Source: Bacteroidota bacterium (GTDB lineage Bacteria > Bacteroidota > Ignavibacteria > Kapaibacteriales > UBA961). Taken from it: DNA of 38,281 nucleotides. The position numbers were made by a program, and so were the translations under genes. The stretch covers positions 1 to 38,281 of the forward strand of contig JAFDZU010000060.1 of the NCBI GenBank assembly GCA_018266765.1, read 5' to 3'. The notes under the pieces are model-generated. The model was not told the DNA's origin. It made no database searches and worked only from the letters and a program-made list of their open reading frames with translations. Below are positions 3,435 through 38,281 of this stretch, in pieces. Each line of letters opens with the position of its first letter. Position 1 is the stretch's first letter.

Positions 3435-5003
3435 ATGGAACATTCAAAAGGTAAAATTCTTTGGATTGACGACGAAATTGAACTTCTGAAACCACATATA
3501 ATTCTACTCACTCAACGCGGTTATACCGTTGAAACCGCTTCAAATGGCGATGATGCACTTGTATTAGCAACCGAAAAAAACTACGATTTATTCTTCCTTG
3601 ATGAATCAATGCTTGGTATGAGTGGCTTAGAAACGCTGTCTCGTTTGAAGGATATTGATTCGTCGAAACCCATTGTCATGGTTACTAAAAATGAAGCTGA
3701 AAGCGTGATGGAAGACGCAATCGGACGGAAAATTGACGATTATCTCACCAAACCTGTCAACCCTGCACAAATATTAGCCGCGTGTAAGAAATTTCTCGAA
3801 TCCAAGAAGATTGCCCAAGGAAAATTCACAAAAGATTACACCCAAGGTTTCAATGATATTACACGGAGGTTATATGGATATATGGATTGGAATGAATGGC
3901 TCGAAGTCTATCAAAAATTAGTGGGTTGGAGCATGGATTTAGACCTTCATCCCGAGCTTGGTTTTGGCGAAACACTCTCTACGCAATGGCGTGAATGCAA
4001 TGCCGCTTTCGGGCGATTTGTCGAGGATAATTACTTGGATTGGATAGACGGCGCGCCTGAAAATACACCGCTGCTGTCGCCACATATAGTAGATAAACAC
4101 GTACTTCCGAAATTATCGAACGGCAAACCCACATTTTTCTTTGTAATTGACTGTATGCGACTTGACCAATGGCTTGTGATGGAAGAACTTATCAAGCCGT
4201 ATTTTACTGTTCAGAAAGACTATTACACTTCTATTTTGCCGACGGCAACACCATATGCACGAAATTCTATTTTTGCAGGACTGTATCCTTCGGAAATTAA
4301 AAAGCATTATCCGCAATATGGCCCCAACGAAAGCGAAAACGAGCACAGCCAAAATGCACACGAAAAAGAATTACTTGCTTCGTTGCTCAAACGTCGGAGA
4401 ATTACACTTAAGAATGATTTATCGTATATTAAAATAATTGATACGGATTTTGGCAAGAAGATTGAGAATGATATTTTGCGATATTCAAAAAATCATCTGA
4501 CGGCAATTGTGGTTAATGCAGTTGATATGATTGCACACTCACGTTCTGATTATCCGATTTTGAAAGAAATTGCGCCGGATGAAAGTGCGTATCGAACCCT
4601 GACAAAAAGTTGGTTTCAGCATTCAAGTTTCTTCGGAATGCTAAAAACACTTTCGACTATTAAGGATATAAATATAGTAATTACGACCGATCACGGTTCT
4701 GTGCGTTGCTTGCATGCCGTTCGTGCTTTGGGCGATAGAGAAACATCATCATGCTTGCGATTTAAGCATGGTAAAAATGTCAAAACTGAAGCAAAGAATG
4801 CTATGTTTATTAAAAACCCCGAGGATTATAAATTGCCGTTGAATGGTGTTTCGACGAATTATATAATTGCTAAAGAAGATTTTTATTTTGTGTATCCGAC
4901 GGATTATCACCATTATGTTCAGCGTTACCGCGATAGTTTTCAGCATGGGGGAATCTCAATGGAAGAAATGATTTTGCCGATAATTACGCTTGAAACGAAG
5001 TAA
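3435..5003 (+). CDS. porX: PorX: response regulator with PglZ domain, T9SS regulator
   Basis: This 522-residue protein matches the PorX architecture and usual length. Residues 1-125 are a CheY-like receiver with the acidic pair D12/D13, phospho-acceptor D56 (FFLDESM), T84 and K106 (LTKPVNP). Residues ~130-220 are a helical linker. Residues ~230-522 are a PglZ domain of the alkaline-phosphatase superfamily, with candidate metal or active-site residues D239 (FFFVIDCMR), T270/T272 (ILPTATPYAR), N361/D364/H368, D419/H420 (TTDHGS) and H504 (FQHGG). In Porphyromonas and Flavobacterium, PorX works with the kinase PorY and the sigma factor SigP to control T9SS genes, and its PglZ domain is a zinc-dependent phosphodiesterase. 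Neither PorY nor SigP is in this window. The start is the only good ATG before the receiver; no strong Shine-Dalgarno is visible. Confidence 0.93.
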   Translation: MEHSKGKILWIDDEIELLKPHIILLTQRGYTVETASNGDDALVLATEKNYDLFFLDESMLGMSGLETLSRLKDIDSSKPIVMVTKNEAESVMEDAIGRKIDDYLTKPVNPAQILAACKKFLESKKIAQGKFTKDYTQGFNDITRRLYGYMDWNEWLEVYQKLVGWSMDLDLHPELGFGETLSTQWRECNAAFGRFVEDNYLDWIDGAPENTPLLSPHIVDKHVLPKLSNGKPTFFFVIDCMRLDQWLVMEELIKPYFTVQKDYYTSILPTATPYARNSIFAGLYPSEIKKHYPQYGPNESENEHSQNAHEKELLASLLKRRRITLKNDLSYIKIIDTDFGKKIENDILRYSKNHLTAIVVNAVDMIAHSRSDYPILKEIAPDESAYRTLTKSWFQHSSFFGMLKTLSTIKDINIVITTDHGSVRCLHAVRALGDRETSSCLRFKHGKNVKTEAKNAMFIKNPEDYKLPLNGVSTNYIIAKEDFYFVYPTDYHHYVQRYRDSFQHGGISMEEMILPIITLETK

Positions 5004-27865: not shown

Positions 27866-29263
27866 TTACAGTGACCTCAAAAAAGCTATAATTGCCTTAC
27901 GGTCACTTTGGGGTAATTTTTTGAAATATTCGCGTGATGTGGATGCCTCACCGCCATGCCACAGAATTGCCTCTATAAAATTTCTGGCTCTCCCGTCATG
28001 CAGAAAGTTTGAATGTCCGTTCACAAGCTCAGTCAAGCCGATTCCCCAAAGCGGTGAGGTGCGCCATTCATTAGCGGTAGCCAAATAATCAGGTCGTCCG
28101 TCCGATAGTTCATCGCCCATATCATGAAGCAATAAATCTGTGTAAGGATGAATAGTTTGATTAGAAATTTCAGGAATATCCGCAACTGTTCCGGTTTTTA
28201 GTGTGGGAGTATGACAGCCCAAACAATTTGCTTGCATAAAAAGCTGCTTACCGCGTTTGACCGTTTCATCATTCGTGTTACGACGGGAGGGAACAGCTAA
28301 AGTTCGAGTATAATGGACGACGGCATCAAGAGTTTTATCATCAACTTCGACAGCATGAGCAGGAATTGCCTGAACTTGCCCCACTGAATTTTCATCAGGG
28401 AAAACTGATGATGTGATTCCCATATCACCATTATACGCACCTGCATTTTGTTGCCTGAGGTTAGGCATATTACATTTCAGCCCGAAGCGACCGAGAGCAG
28501 TACGTTTATTTGTCACATCAAATACATAATTAGGTCTTCCGGAAATCCCGTCTTTATTTGCATCAGATTCATCGGCAATTGCAAGAATACTACTTTCCGG
28601 CACAGCTTCGAGCAATCCAAGACCAAAAACCGGAGGCGCAACTCGCGGGGATATCATAAGTCCGGCAGGAAGTGCAGTATAGGGATTAATTATTGTGTAT
28701 GTCGGCTGTCGCAAACTGTATTTTTCACCATCGGGGAAAGCCCCTTGGATTTCTTTATACGTTATTCTCACATTACCTTCCGAGACAGAACCAATAACAG
28801 CTCGTGGCTGAAGCTGACCGCCAAATCCGGGTGCAGGATTAGGGCCGCCGTCAGGAGCAAAACCGGGAATACTTAACCGAAAAAGCATCGAAGTTAATTC
28901 TTCTCCTTCATTTGGAGGCGTGCCTCGTCCGTCGCTTGCATGACAGCTTACACAGGCAATGTTATTATAAATTGGCCCCAAACCTGAATTTATTGTAGCC
29001 GGAGCTGTTACGAATTTTGCTTCAAATGCAACATCACCTTCTTGATGAAGCTCAAAACTTTGCGCGCTAAGATTTGGAGCAGGATTTGCAAATGCCTTGG
29101 AAGTAGCATCAAAAATTGTGGTAGCTCCCCCCGAAAGTGCATCATTTTCATCAGGATTTGCCGGTGCTGTATTATCGGTGCAACTCATGTAAAAAAAGGA
29201 AATTACTATAAATATTTTCCAAGAATTTTTTAGGATTTTTCGTTGAATCGTTTTTGTGTTCAT
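27866..29263 (-). CDS. Di-haem c-type cytochrome oxidoreductase (DUF1111 family), lipoprotein
   Basis: The 465-residue protein has an N-terminal export signal ending in a lipobox-like YMSC. Two haem c attachment motifs are present: CVSCH (near residue 109, followed by DGRGTPP) and CLGCH (near residue 355). Both lie in the segments expected for the di-haem oxidoreductase family, with VAPPVFGLGLLEAVPE, DGISGRPNYV, RFGLKCNMPNLRQQ and FLHDGRARNFIEAILWHGGE as family signatures. It should work in the periplasm as an electron-transfer or peroxidase-like enzyme. It begins 24 bases after the imelysin gene stop, so the two are very probably one transcript, as in other imelysin loci. Confidence 0.85.
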   Translation of the reverse strand: MNTKTIQRKILKNSWKIFIVISFFYMSCTDNTAPANPDENDALSGGATTIFDATSKAFANPAPNLSAQSFELHQEGDVAFEAKFVTAPATINSGLGPIYNNIACVSCHASDGRGTPPNEGEELTSMLFRLSIPGFAPDGGPNPAPGFGGQLQPRAVIGSVSEGNVRITYKEIQGAFPDGEKYSLRQPTYTIINPYTALPAGLMISPRVAPPVFGLGLLEAVPESSILAIADESDANKDGISGRPNYVFDVTNKRTALGRFGLKCNMPNLRQQNAGAYNGDMGITSSVFPDENSVGQVQAIPAHAVEVDDKTLDAVVHYTRTLAVPSRRNTNDETVKRGKQLFMQANCLGCHTPTLKTGTVADIPEISNQTIHPYTDLLLHDMGDELSDGRPDYLATANEWRTSPLWGIGLTELVNGHSNFLHDGRARNFIEAILWHGGEASTSREYFKKLPQSDRKAIIAFLRSL

Positions 29264-29287
29264 TTTGTGAAATTTAGAATTTGTGGT

Positions 29288-30358
29288 TTAATTTCCAATA
29301 AGAAGAGGTATAACATCGGCATTCAGCGTCGTTTTAAGTTTCAACACTGCATCCTGCGCCGCTCGAACATTTGCTTTATTCGTAAAAATAGCTTGTCCAA
29401 ACGAAGGAAGCATTGCACCGATTGTCTCAATAGCAGCATCTATTTCTCGTTTGCATCGGGCATCAAGCTCAGCGTTTTTTTCAGCAACTAAGAATGAAAT
29501 TCCTTTGCCGGAGAAACTTCCATAGACCCCATGATAGACATTACGCACGCTTCGAATATTATCGGCAAAATCTGCATTGGAATTGTCACTAAATTGAGAT
29601 TCTTCTCTTTGGCGGTCTTGCAGGGTGAACGGTTCATTAATTTTTCCGTTGGCAACTTCATCGCAAATATTAATCATTCCTTGGATAATCTCTTGTACAG
29701 CGGCATGTTGGGAAACGTAAATACTACTTCCTGTAACACCAGCATTGATAAAATTAGCCCCAAAATTATCTCCTGAAGTATCCCAAGATTTCCATAATTC
29801 AAATACTGCGGCTTTGAAACTTTGTGTAGTCGCGACCAAATAATCAATTTCTCGAATTGTAAAATCTTTCGCAGTTTTGGAATTATTAGCACCAAATAAT
29901 AAATATTCGATAGTATGGAAACCTTTTTGGGTTGATTCGAGTTGGTCAATAGTTTCTTTGGTGAGTGGCGAGGAACTTGCCAGAACACCATCGAGGTCAA
30001 TTTTATTCAGAGGCCAACTATCAATCCTCGGGTCTATTCCTTTCGTCTCTACAGGGCCGAATAAAAACCCTTCGCTTTGTTCCCACGGACGGCGTGCATC
30101 TCGCCATGCCTGTTTTGCCGCATTAAGATTATCTTCAGTTTTGGAAGATTTAAATTGTGAAACTATAGAATCTAATATTTGTGCTCGGTCGAGCATATCC
30201 TTATATGTCGGTATAATGACACCGATTGTAATATTGGTGAGTGCCTCTTTTACATCAGTTGCAGATGTATTCGGCGTTGTTGGATTCGTAGAGCATCCGG
30301 TCGTAATTAACGTTGCAATAATAATTAAAGCAGTAAGAGATATTGAAGAGATTTTCAT
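29288..30358 (-). CDS. Imelysin-family (M75) lipoprotein, probable iron-associated
   Basis: Starting at ATG 30358 gives a lipoprotein signal, MKISSISLTALIIIATLITTGC; the extra upstream frame to 30403 overlaps the porin gene and is rejected. The 356-residue protein has the imelysin signatures QAWRDARRPWEQSEGFLFGPV, IDSWPLN and the GxHxxE motif GFHTIEYLLFG. It also has a C-terminal half with helices NVYHGVYGSFSGKGISFLVAEKN. Imelysins lack proven protease activity in most cases and are thought to take part in iron uptake as EfeO/IcmP-like periplasmic proteins. It lies between an outer-membrane porin and a di-haem protein, consistent with an uptake role. The substrate is inferred only. Confidence 0.87.
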   Translation of the reverse strand: MKISSISLTALIIIATLITTGCSTNPTTPNTSATDVKEALTNITIGVIIPTYKDMLDRAQILDSIVSQFKSSKTEDNLNAAKQAWRDARRPWEQSEGFLFGPVETKGIDPRIDSWPLNKIDLDGVLASSSPLTKETIDQLESTQKGFHTIEYLLFGANNSKTAKDFTIREIDYLVATTQSFKAAVFELWKSWDTSGDNFGANFINAGVTGSSIYVSQHAAVQEIIQGMINICDEVANGKINEPFTLQDRQREESQFSDNSNADFADNIRSVRNVYHGVYGSFSGKGISFLVAEKNAELDARCKREIDAAIETIGAMLPSFGQAIFTNKANVRAAQDAVLKLKTTLNADVIPLLIGN

Positions 30359-30392
30359 AATTAAATAGAGAAAAGTAATACAATGATAAAAT

Positions 30393-31634
30393 TTATAGTT
30401 CAAATCCGATTCCCGTCGAAAATGTGTCCTCGAAGTTATCGCGGGAAATACCGAGAATACGATGATTAAATTGAATTTTCAGAACAACTTGAGGGTGGAA
30501 TTTATAATTTATACCGGCTGTTATAGACTTGCGAGCCCAGCGTGGATTATCAATAACATCTCCTTCGGTTCTAAACATAGAATCGTAATAATCATACCGC
30601 ATAAACGGGAGAAGTTCTTGCTTCATAATAGAATCGCCAAGAGCTAACGGCGAATTTGTAAGCAACGAAAAGACATCAAATCCGGCTTCGATAAATGCAC
30701 CTAACGCTACACTTCCTACAGGAGTTCGCTTTACTCCGAGTTCGTTCGACAAACCTTTATTGGCAAGTGAAATTGCGGCTGAATTTTCGAGTATTCCATA
30801 CAGAGCCAATGTTCTTATATGCAAAGCACCTGCATCAAGAGCTGATTGAAGTGTTCCAATAAAAACATGAGCCGGAATTGTTACATCGGGCTTTGGACGA
30901 TTGCCCGAAGTATTGCCGTAGTATGCGCTTGTACCCAACGTAAAGCCGTCCGATAGTCTATATTGTATATTGGTCGCAAGCGCAAGGTTTTCTGCATTGG
31001 CATAGTCGAAACGTGATTGATACCCCCGTTTTATCCAATTTGCAGAGCTAAACCCGGTGGCATCTAACCCATTGATTAGTTGTAATTGATAGCGGAGTTT
31101 ACCGGTTTGACCATACACTTCGATTCCGTTTTCATGCCATGCAACCGGCAGAAGTGCGGCTTCGGTTTCGGAAACATTTGTTGTAAAAAAATAACTTGGT
31201 TCATAGCGTTCGGAATAAAATCCGATTGGCAAATAAAAATGCCCAACAAGAAAATTTAATTCCGGAATCAATGTAATTCTTACGGCAAGTTTTTCGAGTA
31301 CTACTTCACCACCTTTTTCTATAGATTGCTCATATTGGCCAAATTCCTCAAACCTGTCGAACTCCATAGTAGCTCCGGCTCCACCATGTTCAAATTCAAT
31401 ATCAGCTTCAAAAGCAATATTCTTATTTAGTTGGTATTTGGGTTCAAAAGCAAATCGTTCGGGGTCAATTCTATTCCGTCTTTGCGGGTCAGTTTGCCAT
31501 TTGAAACCATAATAATTCACAATCCCGTACGCTTCGTAAGAGAATGGATTAGAAGGTGTTTGCTGTGGATTTTGCTGGGCTGAAATATTAGTTGTCACAC
31601 CAATTATCAAAAAAAACAGAATAATTGTTTTCAT
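30393..31634 (-). CDS. Outer-membrane porin-like beta-barrel protein
   Basis: From ATG 31634 the protein has 413 residues and a signal peptide MKTIILFFLIIGVTTNISAQ. The body is a run of amphipathic strands with aromatic girdles (EAYGIVNYYGFKWQTD, IAFEADIEFEHGG, FLVGHFYLPIGFYSERYEPSYFF, LRYQLQLINGLDATGFSSANWI) and it ends in FSTGIGFEL, as expected for an outer-membrane barrel. It resembles phosphate-selective or phosphonate-type porins in general layout, but I cannot name the family. Its stop is 34 bases before the imelysin start, so it is probably the first gene of a porin-imelysin-dihaem operon. It is divergent from the gene at 31828. Confidence 0.78.
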   Translation of the reverse strand: MKTIILFFLIIGVTTNISAQQNPQQTPSNPFSYEAYGIVNYYGFKWQTDPQRRNRIDPERFAFEPKYQLNKNIAFEADIEFEHGGAGATMEFDRFEEFGQYEQSIEKGGEVVLEKLAVRITLIPELNFLVGHFYLPIGFYSERYEPSYFFTTNVSETEAALLPVAWHENGIEVYGQTGKLRYQLQLINGLDATGFSSANWIKRGYQSRFDYANAENLALATNIQYRLSDGFTLGTSAYYGNTSGNRPKPDVTIPAHVFIGTLQSALDAGALHIRTLALYGILENSAAISLANKGLSNELGVKRTPVGSVALGAFIEAGFDVFSLLTNSPLALGDSIMKQELLPFMRYDYYDSMFRTEGDVIDNPRWARKSITAGINYKFHPQVVLKIQFNHRILGISRDNFEDTFSTGIGFEL

Positions 31635-35598: not shown

Positions 35599-36405
35599 TT
35601 AGTCATTCCTCAACACTTCCCATAATTTTCTCAGCGTTACAATCTGTTTTACTTCGTGCACTCGGATTATTTCTATTGTTTCCTCCAACAGCAAAGCATG
35701 AAGCATAGCTGTGGCAACATCTCGTTCAATTGGGTGCTCTATCCCAAGTAATTTCCCGAGGAATGATTTCCTCGATATTCCCAAAACCATCGGAACGCCT
35801 AAATTTTCAAATTTGTTCAAATTTTTAAGCAGTGACCAGTTGTGTTCGGCAGTTTTCCCGAAGCCAATTCCGACATCAGCCATAACATTCGCTACTCCGA
35901 GTGACCGCGCAAGCTCAATTTTCCCTGATAACTCACTAAAAACATCCTCTGCAACATTATTATAGCTTGGTTTTATCTGCATTGTGCGTGGCGTTCCCTG
36001 AATATGCATAATAATGAGCCCCGCATTATGTACAGCGGCGAGGGTTGCCAATTGAATATCAGTTCCAAGTCCTGAAATATCATTGATAATATTCGCACCT
36101 GCATCCAATGCGGCTACTGCAACGTCATATTTAACCGTGTCTATTGAGATTTTTACTGTAGAATTGACCTTTCTTATCCCCTCAATCACGGGAATCACCC
36201 TCTTTTTTTCTTCTTCAATTGATATTTCATCAGCATTTGGACGCGAACTTTCGCCTCCAATATCTAAAATATCGGCTCCATCTGCAATTAATTGCATAGC
36301 ATGTTCTATCGCAGTATCCTTCTGAACAAATAATCCGCCATCAGAAAAGGAATCAGGGGTTACATTTACTATCCCCATAATTTTAGGAAATTTATGTTGC
36401 TTCAT
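35599..36405 (-). CDS. folP: Dihydropteroate synthase
   Basis: FolP joins p-aminobenzoate to dihydropterin pyrophosphate in folate synthesis. The 268-residue TIM barrel has the hallmark strand KIMGIVNVTPDSFSDGG, the pterin-binding DILDIGGESSRPNADEIS, ISIDTVKYDVA, NIINDISGLG, and the loop VMADVGIGFGKTAEHNWSLL. The C-terminal region has MVLGISRKSFLGKLLGIEHPIERDVATAMLHALL and IIRVHEVKQIV. All catalytic regions look intact. The start ATG at 36405 is the only sensible one. It is convergent with the response regulator and shares its terminator. It begins a long intergenic region upstream. Confidence 0.95.
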   Translation of the reverse strand: MKQHKFPKIMGIVNVTPDSFSDGGLFVQKDTAIEHAMQLIADGADILDIGGESSRPNADEISIEEEKKRVIPVIEGIRKVNSTVKISIDTVKYDVAVAALDAGANIINDISGLGTDIQLATLAAVHNAGLIIMHIQGTPRTMQIKPSYNNVAEDVFSELSGKIELARSLGVANVMADVGIGFGKTAEHNWSLLKNLNKFENLGVPMVLGISRKSFLGKLLGIEHPIERDVATAMLHALLLEETIEIIRVHEVKQIVTLRKLWEVLRND

Positions 36406-36742: not shown

Positions 36743-37000
36743 GAATTCATTAATGCAATAATGCGGAAAAAATATATCGATTTTGAGTTCTTTTTGTCAA
36801 AAAAGAGTTCATATTTTCAAATTTTGAATTCAATTCTCTAAAAAAAGGGTTCATGTTTGTAAATTTTGAATTCAGTTTTGATAATTTTGAATTCAGTTTT
36901 ATCATTTTTGAATTCATATTTATTAAAATTGAGTTCGAAATTGTTATTTTTGAGTTCATATTTGTAAATTTTGAATTCAAATTTGTCGTTTTTGAATTAT
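36743..37000. repeat. 21-bp-period tandem array of GAATTC-like sites
   Basis: GAATTC or one-base variants (GAGTTC, GGGTTC) start at 36805, 36826, 36847, 36868, 36889, 36910, 36931, 36952, 36973 and 36994 (GAATTA), exactly 21 bases apart. There is one more at 36785 (20 bases before) and one at 36743, two periods earlier. The consensus unit is about TTTTGAATTCATATTTGTAAA. The period equals two turns of B-DNA. On the minus strand the array is also an open frame of a heptapeptide, roughly (N-M/L-N-S-K-F-T)n, ATG at 37043 to stop near 36750, which would form a coiled coil. I regard DNA-level function as at least as likely as coding. Confidence 0.8.
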
Positions 37001-37029
37001 TATATTTCGTAATTAATTTACAATTTCTA

Positions 37030-37104
37030 AAAAAATATTTCAAAAAATAAAAATAATTCTTGCATCGTATTAAAAAAGTTCGTAAGTTTGTACCAAGAAG
37101 AATT
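37030..37104 (+). repeat. 75-bp direct repeat, copy 1, carrying promoter P1
   Basis: This matches 37136-37210 at 74 of 75 positions (C at 37093 against T at 37199), offset 106 bases. The 31-base gap between copies is unrelated AT-rich DNA. Confidence 0.9.
37060..37090 (+). promoter_or_regulatory. Predicted Bacteroidota-type promoter P1
   Basis: TTG (37060-37062), 20-base spacer, TAAGTTTG (37083-37090). This fits both the spacing and the exact TAnnTTTG -7 element used by the primary sigma factor of Bacteroidota. A start site near 37097 is expected, about 150 bases before the FN3 gene. Confidence 0.65.
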
Positions 37105-37135
37105 GAAAATCAGAAAAAATAAAATTTAATATTTG

Positions 37136-37210
37136 AAAAAATATTTCAAAAAATAAAAATAATTCTTGCATCGTATTAAAAAAGTTCGTAAGTTTGTATC
37201 AAGAAGAATT
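37136..37210 (+). repeat. 75-bp direct repeat, copy 2, carrying promoter P2
   Basis: Second copy of the duplication, ending 33 bases before the ATG at 37244. Apart from one transition it is identical to copy 1. Confidence 0.9.
37166..37196 (+). promoter_or_regulatory. Predicted Bacteroidota-type promoter P2
   Basis: TTG (37166-37168), 20-base spacer, TAAGTTTG (37189-37196), as in P1. It would give a leader of about 40 bases for the FN3 gene. Confidence 0.65.
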
Positions 37211-37243
37211 CAAAATTAAATTTTAGAAAAACAAAAGAAAGAA

Positions 37244-37867
37244 ATGGCAAAAGTTAAGTTAGATGTAGCCAGCATATCAGCTCAGGATCTTACAGGTGTG
37301 GCGCAATCTATTGCAAACGGATTAACAAGCAATGTAAATTTTAGTACGCCAATGCCAACACCGTCAGCATTAAATGCAAAAGCGGCAGAGGTTGATACTG
37401 CGAGCCAAGAAATAGAAAATTTGAAATCATTATTAAAGACAAAGCAGTCAGCATTAGATAATAAGCGCAAAGAATTAAGGGACTTAATTAAACAAGCAAG
37501 AAATTATGTAGAATTGAATAGTGGTGGGGACGAAACAAAGATTCTAAGCGCAGGCATGCAGGTTCGTTCGGAGGCGGGAACAGTTGGGTTACTTCAAGCA
37601 CCGCAAAATTTTACGGTTTCAGAAGGCGCAAACCCGGGAATGGTGGAGCTAAAATGGAAAACAGTGCGCGGTTCGAGCAGTTATATTATCGAACGAAGCA
37701 CAGACCCGCCCACATCGTCAAGTTGGACATCAGGTGCAGTAAGCACGAAAGCAAAATATTTGATGGGCAATTTGGAGAGCGGTACAAAGTTTTGGTTTAA
37801 AGTGGCGGCAGTAAATTCAGCAGGAATTGGAGCTTGGAGTTCGCCGATATTAAAGATTATTCCGTGA
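37244..37867 (+). CDS. Coiled-coil plus fibronectin type III domain protein
   Basis: The 207-residue protein has no signal peptide or membrane segment. Residues 1-43 are a polar, Ser/Asn-rich N-terminus (KVKLDVASISAQDLTGVAQSI). Residues ~44-90 are a strong coiled coil (AKAAEVDTASQEIENLKSLLKTKQSALDNKRKELRD in pattern). A short LSAGMQVRSEAG segment leads to a single FN3 domain at ~116-207 (PQNFTVSEGANPGMVELKWKTVRGSSSYIIERS..., ending NSAGIGAWSSPILKIIP). Such small FN3 proteins recur in Bacteroidota, and I know no established function for them. The ATG at 37244 has a purine-rich GAAAGAA just before it. It is driven by the duplicated promoters and lies 81 bp upstream of the double-glycine peptide genes. 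Confidence 0.8.
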   Translation: MAKVKLDVASISAQDLTGVAQSIANGLTSNVNFSTPMPTPSALNAKAAEVDTASQEIENLKSLLKTKQSALDNKRKELRDLIKQARNYVELNSGGDETKILSAGMQVRSEAGTVGLLQAPQNFTVSEGANPGMVELKWKTVRGSSSYIIERSTDPPTSSSWTSGAVSTKAKYLMGNLESGTKFWFKVAAVNSAGIGAWSSPILKIIP

Positions 37868-37948: not shown

Positions 37949-38107
37949 ATGAACAATGCCTTAAACCTCGACCTTGTAAGTGTAGAAGAACTCTCAACAC
38001 TTGATATGAATGCAATTTTAGGTGGAAATACTGACCCGATTGTCGTTGATAATGGTGGAACAGGAATTATTACTGCAGTTTGGTTTGATACCGGTATCCG
38101 TCCGTAA
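37949..38107 (+). CDS. Double-glycine-leader peptide precursor 1 (bacteriocin/RiPP-like)
   Basis: This 52-residue gene is too small for routine ORF calling. It is supported by its Shine-Dalgarno and by a close paralogue starting 210 bases later. Residues 1-26 form a leader, with LDLVSVEELSTLDMNAILGG matching the double-glycine pattern L-x-x-x-E-L-S-x-x-[DE]-M-x-x-I-x-GG cut by C39 peptidases of ABC exporters. The predicted core is residues 27-52: NTDPIVVDNGGTGIITAV followed by WFDTGIRP. It has no Cys, Ser or Lys, so lanthionine or disulfide chemistry is excluded. Asp and Thr are plentiful, so ester or amide macrocycles (graspetide-like) or no modification are possible. No transporter or modifying enzyme is in the window. 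Confidence 0.75.
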   Translation: MNNALNLDLVSVEELSTLDMNAILGGNTDPIVVDNGGTGIITAVWFDTGIRP

Positions 38108-38158
38108 CTTTTCTTTAATTACTCTAACGAATTTTAAATCTTTTACTATTATAATATT

Positions 38159-38281
38159 ATGAATAATACCCTAACACTCGACCTTGTAACTTTAGATGAA
38201 TTATCAACATTTGATATGAATGCAATCGTAGGTGGAAATACTGACCCTATTGTTGTAGATAATGGTGGAACAGGAATTATT
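38159..38281 (+). CDS. Double-glycine-leader peptide precursor 2 (truncated by the window end)
   Basis: Forty-one codons are visible before the window ends. The leader LDLVTLDELSTFDMNAIVGG differs from copy 1 at several conservative positions (whole leader A4T, N6T, S11T, V12L, E13D, L18F, L24V). The visible core, NTDPIVVDNGGTGII, is identical. Within the 17 codons from the GG onward there are three nucleotide changes, all synonymous (CCG/CCT, GTC/GTT, GTT/GTA). This shows that both frames are translated and selected. The 51-bp gap between the genes has no terminator or clear Shine-Dalgarno. Confidence 0.75.
   Translation, partial: MNNTLTLDLVTLDELSTFDMNAIVGGNTDPIVVDNGGTGII

Follow-up and report, generated by a model that had tools for sequence, protein, structure and literature searches.

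Peptides with a double-glycine (GG) leader are exported by PCAT/AMS transporters (ComA/ComC, PCAT1, LahT), and LahT/ComA recognise their leaders through positions -1, -2, -4, -7, -8 and -12 (PMC6363468). The combination of GG leader and C39-ABC exporter is reported to be typical for class II bacteriocins and for microcins (PMC10233263, PMC9746304). The closest functional precedent for the locus described here is, by analogy, the EbfG1-4/PteB system of Synechococcus elongatus PCC 7942, where clustered GG proteins are needed for biofilm formation and a C39-peptidase transporter is needed for their secretion (PMC4997328), and where three of these proteins, EbfG1-3, form amyloid (PMC9981879). In both cases a Gram-negative bacterium encodes several small precursors with a GG motif side by side; the genome studied here carries a candidate PCAT, and to neither set of peptides has a bacteriocin activity been assigned. 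In S. elongatus, however, exporter and precursors share one cloned fragment, whereas here the exporter is on another contig, and the tail of our peptides is near-invariant between copies, unlike that of EbfG1-4; the likeness drawn is not one of sequence. A second comparable case is the cluster of bacteriocin-type signal domain proteins in Treponema denticola, which are tandemly duplicated and secreted, and in which reportedly no bactericidal activity was found (PMC11879956). Tandem duplication of GG-type genes is common to that cluster and the present array, but the T. denticola genes are interleaved with lipoprotein genes and have an adjacent ABC transporter, unlike the array here.

The window, that is the whole stretch of 38,281 nt analysed, is contig C63 of a genome of 3.71 Mb in 106 contigs (G000). 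At its right edge two ORFs follow each other, in agreement with a first, sequence-only reading which had seen two adjacent genes of about 50 residues with GG leaders (Table 1). The first ORF is complete and encodes 52 aa, the leader MNNALNLDLVSVEELSTLDMNAILGG being followed directly by the core NTDPIVVDNGGTGIITAVWFDTGIRP. The second is cut by the contig end after 41 aa; it has a GG leader too and its core begins with NTDPIVVDNGGTGII. The predicted mature peptide of copy 1 has 26 aa, a computed mass of 2729.0 Da and a net charge of about -2. A chance origin of these matches is excluded, because a strict pattern for small ORFs with a GG leader matches just the two edge ORFs in the window and gives 0 matches in 300 Markov-1 simulated windows. 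We regard both ORFs as genuine genes for PCAT-type secreted peptides, which would be cleaved behind the GG and exported.

Table 1. Features at the right end of the window
Feature	Position	Strand	Evidence
Dihydropteroate synthase (DHPS), left flank, anchor conserved in G002	35599..36405	-	Pterin_bind E 3e-79; L005:2150-2950
fn3-domain protein, 207 aa, 81 nt gap upstream of array	37244..37867	+	Pfam fn3 E 7e-8
GG-leader peptide precursor, copy 1	37949..38107	+	complete ORF; 88% identical copies on C81; 7 homologues in G002
Leader of copy 1, MNNALNLDLVSVEELSTLDMNAILGG	37949..38026	+	11-copy alignment and sister-genus peptides
Predicted mature peptide of copy 1, NTDPIVVDNGGTGIITAVWFDTGIRP	38027..38104	+	cleavage after GG predicted from leader type
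Near-invariant C-terminal 15 residues, TGIITAVWFDTGIRP	38060..38104	+	pN/pS 0.011 between genomes
GG-leader peptide precursor, copy 2, cut by contig end	38159..38281	+	copies 3 and 4 on G000:C81

The search for more copies to the right, proposed by the sequence-only reading, succeeded. Two further copies are located at the end of contig C81 of the same genome (23099-23464, minus strand, E about 1e-26), and this contig starts within a preceding peptide copy, of which it has the final codons. Behind the C81 copies lies a strong intrinsic terminator with a 16-pair stem (C81 23078-23044), and beyond it a TPR histidine kinase is read convergently to them. An intact locus is present in another genome of the same genus, the Ignavibacteria MAG G002 (contig CALMMI010000042.1), with the gene order DHPS, fn3 protein, seven tandem copies (L005 4479-5922) and TPR histidine kinase. 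Judged by this synteny, C63 most likely adjoins C81, and the two together would hold at least four copies. The initial count of two thus holds for the window but reflects the contig break, as array sizes in the genus are at least four (G000) and seven (G002). At the intact G002 array and its flanks no exporter, maturase or immunity gene was recognisable, and the flanking genes that were checked in the window are ordinary ones. What had been called a secreted-peptide locus does contain secreted-peptide genes, but not a biosynthetic cluster, since the intact locus lacks exporter and maturase and the exporter is unlinked.

The fn3 protein occupies the same position in G002 and is 85% identical there. 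No full-length homologue was detected in G001, G004, G009, G005 or G003, so that among the seven genomes tested the full-length protein was found only together with the peptide array (G000, G002). It shows no obvious signal peptide, and it is a possible operon partner of the array. The DNA 5' of its gene is repetitive: about eight units of a 21-nt periodic repeat of the TTTGAATTCA type occupy intergenic positions 36792-36980, a similar 7-codon repeat (LHLNFWT) occurring in G007 (L061), and just before the gene a segment of about 100 nt is doubled at 90% identity (37011-37110 and 37117-37216, within 37011-37216).

In copy 1 the leader carries V-15, L-12, D-8, M-7, I-4, G-2 and G-1, and L-12, E/D-8, M-7, I-4 and the GG are conserved in the alignments over 11 copies and two genera. 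This agrees with the known recognition positions (GG at -2/-1, hydrophobic residues at -4, -7 and -12, E/D at -8; PMC6363468) and bears out the earlier assignment to the C39-type double-glycine class. A whole-genome search of G000 yielded a single C39 match above the cut-off, on contig C31. The protein, a PCAT of 728 aa with C39, ABC membrane and ABC ATPase domains, aligns over its full length to PCAT1 (4ry2) and ComA (8hf7) and is adjoined by a 432-aa HlyD. G001, G002 and the genomes of a sister genus (g3, see below) have kept the pair, the adaptor ORF of G009 having 364 aa, and in five genomes the Cys, His and Asp columns of the C39 domain do not vary. In leader positions and in the full-length PCAT with its C39 Cys/His/Asp the system resembles the PCAT/AMS systems of PMC6363468; different from those, the core here has no match among named families, and the genes of the substrates form an unlinked tandem array in Ignavibacteria. 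The exporter with its HlyD partner that had been looked for thus exists as one pair in the genome, but not at the array: the two are on separate contigs in G000, and none is present at the intact G002 locus. The family f1 comprises the array-bearing genus g1 (including G000, G002 and G001) and g2 to g4. Within it the PCAT occurs in g1 and g3 and the peptides only in g1 and g3, two clades being too few for a strong case of co-occurrence; the g2 and g4 genomes tested gave neither a C39 match above cut-off nor peptides. In G001 the exporter is present and no peptide was detected, but the assembly probably misses the array region, since the flanking DHPS is without a match as well. A second C39-ABC protein, running off a contig edge, was seen in G004 (C35, L067:2-1534), with a response-regulator gene on the same contig.

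Each of the genomes of the sister genus g3 (G004, G007, G009) contains one GG peptide, with fumC on one side and a ribosomal-protein-S21-like gene on the other; these two names were given by eye from sequence. An example is the precursor MKREFQTLTAAEMTAIVGG followed by TTATIVETSSPDAPGIYDLYMDWGWRSDPVDPSKK. In these leaders the GG (-2/-1) is retained, as are the hydrophobic positions -4, -7, -12 and -15, and the tail pattern [VL]-[WY]-x-D-x-G-[IW]-R is shared with g1, the g3 form being DLYMDWGWR. Because leader spacing and tail motif agree, the g1 and g3 peptides likely descend from a common ancestor. As independent evidence, a search with model A1 alone matched G004 and G007 at E about 0.05. 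The strong scores that peptides receive from a model which includes them, that of G004 in A3 and those of G004 and G009 in A4, arise partly by construction. G009, which is outside A3, was matched by it at E 1.5e-13, but as G009 is close to G004 this ties the g3 members to each other more than g1 to g3. In G009 a 47-aa ORF directly 5' of the GG peptide (L083:1282-1425, also L149:4817-4960) has DLYSDWGWRNEK at its end, and with it the tail motif, but lacks a GG leader; this tail region is not kept in G004.

No further convincing member was found in about 390 genomes of the class and about 395 of the phylum that were sampled. The candidates rejected comprise a 40-aa ORF with a similar tail in G334 (L086:1486-1608), which is antisense to a 473-aa ORF; matches in G055, G025, G250 and many others of class and phylum at E 0.002-0.1, taken as chance since they fall within long ORFs, are interrupted by stops or align with a part of the model only; a Cys-rich GG peptide in G615 (L145) that has only the leader style in common; and a weak match in G004 (C96) containing a stop and without a coherent ORF. 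A scan of viral contigs gave no relative, and a partial plasmid match (50% identity, E 0.8) was taken as chance. The core had not been recognised by the sequence-only reading from any class, and indeed no Pfam or NCBIfam model scored above its cut-off; a literature search for two core strings also gave no match. Both findings that would have spoken against the proposed peptide locus, a genome free of exporter and related peptides or homologues with a shifted GG site, did not materialise, as the C31 pair and the C81 copies were found and GG site and spacing are kept in the 11 copies and the g3 peptides. Judged by these comparisons, the peptides appear to form an undescribed family that belongs to a known kind, the GG peptides exported by PCATs.

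Repertoire-type RiPP families combine constant leaders with varying cores, the prochlorosins being a diversifying case. This model was rejected here, as the tail of the core varies less than the leader. Between the copies of G000 and G002, pN/pS is 0.29 in the leader, 0.37 in the middle and 0.011 in the last 15 residues, where about 70% of the synonymous sites have changed and about 6.6 synonymous stand against about 0.2 non-synonymous differences per between-genome pair. The copies are homogenised within each genome, but the comparison between genomes shows the tail to be under extreme purifying selection. An unmodified class II bacteriocin or microcin, killing relatives and raised in yield by the tandem copies, would fit the usual association of GG leader and C39-ABC exporter, and weak sub-threshold matches to the Lactococcin and bacteriocin_sig models point the same way. 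The intact array and its flanks contain no small immunity ORF, though, the cores are acidic and short, and the tail does not diversify but stays invariant from copy to copy and between genomes. These three features argue against a classical bacteriocin, and the set of peptides does not resemble a bacteriocin repertoire under diversification; we consider this explanation unlikely.

Lanthipeptides and sactipeptides had been dismissed early for want of Cys, which is sound by established chemistry, as none of the 11 g1 cores contains Cys; the Cys that a disulfide bacteriocin would need is likewise missing. The core had also been described as free of Ser and Lys, but a Ser is present in the core of one G002 copy (L005:5546-5704). 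Another alternative is a RiPP precursor in which the aromatic-x-Asp motif (WFD/YMD) or Thr/Asp residues would be cross-linked by a maturase encoded elsewhere (cyclophane, graspetide, MNIO or similar). The conserved C-terminal aromatic-x-D-x-G-x-R motif, which we take to resemble maturase targets, would suit it, and Thr-directed chemistry may act on the core. The leader further resembles the Bacteroidota-style GG leaders of rSAM-modified RiPPs (TIGR04149, GG_sam_targ_CFB), but with 16.5 bits it stays below the cut-off of 25. SPASM proteins occur in the g3 genomes, whereas G000 and G002 gave no SPASM match although the control genomes did, and the core has no Cys; the peptides can therefore not be assigned to the rSAM/SPASM RiPPs by leader score or enzyme. 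A search for an MvdD-type ATP-grasp gave no match, but gave none in any control genome either. An ATP-grasp maturase is absent from the intact locus too. A graspetide, as once envisaged, and a SPASM-modified RiPP thus found no support in these searches, and we judge the RiPP alternative to be rather improbable. An unmodified product is probably the simplest reading, because there is no maturase at the intact locus and no SPASM protein in the array-bearing genomes.

Gene array, leader conservation, exporter presence and purifying selection on the tail are observed. From these we tentatively favour, at somewhat less than even confidence, a non-lethal extracellular factor, acting as a short signal or as a surface or biofilm-matrix peptide like the cyanobacterial EbfG. 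The leader of about 26 residues would be recognised and cut after Gly-Gly by the C31 PCAT, the only C39-peptidase ABC exporter of the genome; PCAT, HlyD adaptor and an outer-membrane channel would release an acidic peptide of 26-27 residues, probably unmodified, which would act through the invariant C-terminal segment. The tandem copies would raise the dose of one product and not provide a repertoire. Against this reading stands the unlinked exporter, and the C31 PCAT could serve other substrates. Nor is a receptor consistently linked, since it is only in g1 that the TPR kinase adjoins the array. A bolder version, to which we give little credence, is a new Gram-negative pheromone family of PCAT-exported 26-mers. 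A receptor of their own, perhaps the TPR histidine kinase next to the array in g1, would detect the invariant aromatic-x-Asp-x-Gly-x-Arg tail, and tandem amplification would set the signal dose.

The matrix half of the favoured reading could also hold alone, the peptides being structural biofilm or amyloid components strictly analogous to EbfG1-4. Clustered C39-dependent GG proteins and amyloid formation in S. elongatus, the hydrophobic IITAVWF stretch followed by a turn-like DTG, and a dose suggested by many near-identical copies are compatible with it. The likeness is one of gene arrangement, however, the exporter is linked there and not here, and the AlphaFold model of the precursor is uninformative (pLDDT 57), so that we hold this strict analogy to be improbable.

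GG-leader peptides with unlinked exporters are easily overlooked by cluster-based genome mining, and this Ignavibacteria family is a clear case, with an exact predicted mature mass, one candidate exporter and a conserved tail. If the non-lethal role is true, it adds to the few Gram-negative cases, EbfG among them, where peptides of this type have a role other than killing. The group that carries these near-identical tandem genes is little studied. Two other parts of the window deserve mention. At 3435-5003 a response regulator is fused to a PglZ domain, a protein which presumably resembles PorX of the type IX secretion system. At 27866-30403 a di-haem oxidoreductase adjoins an imelysin (M75) gene, looking like an iron-acquisition pair.
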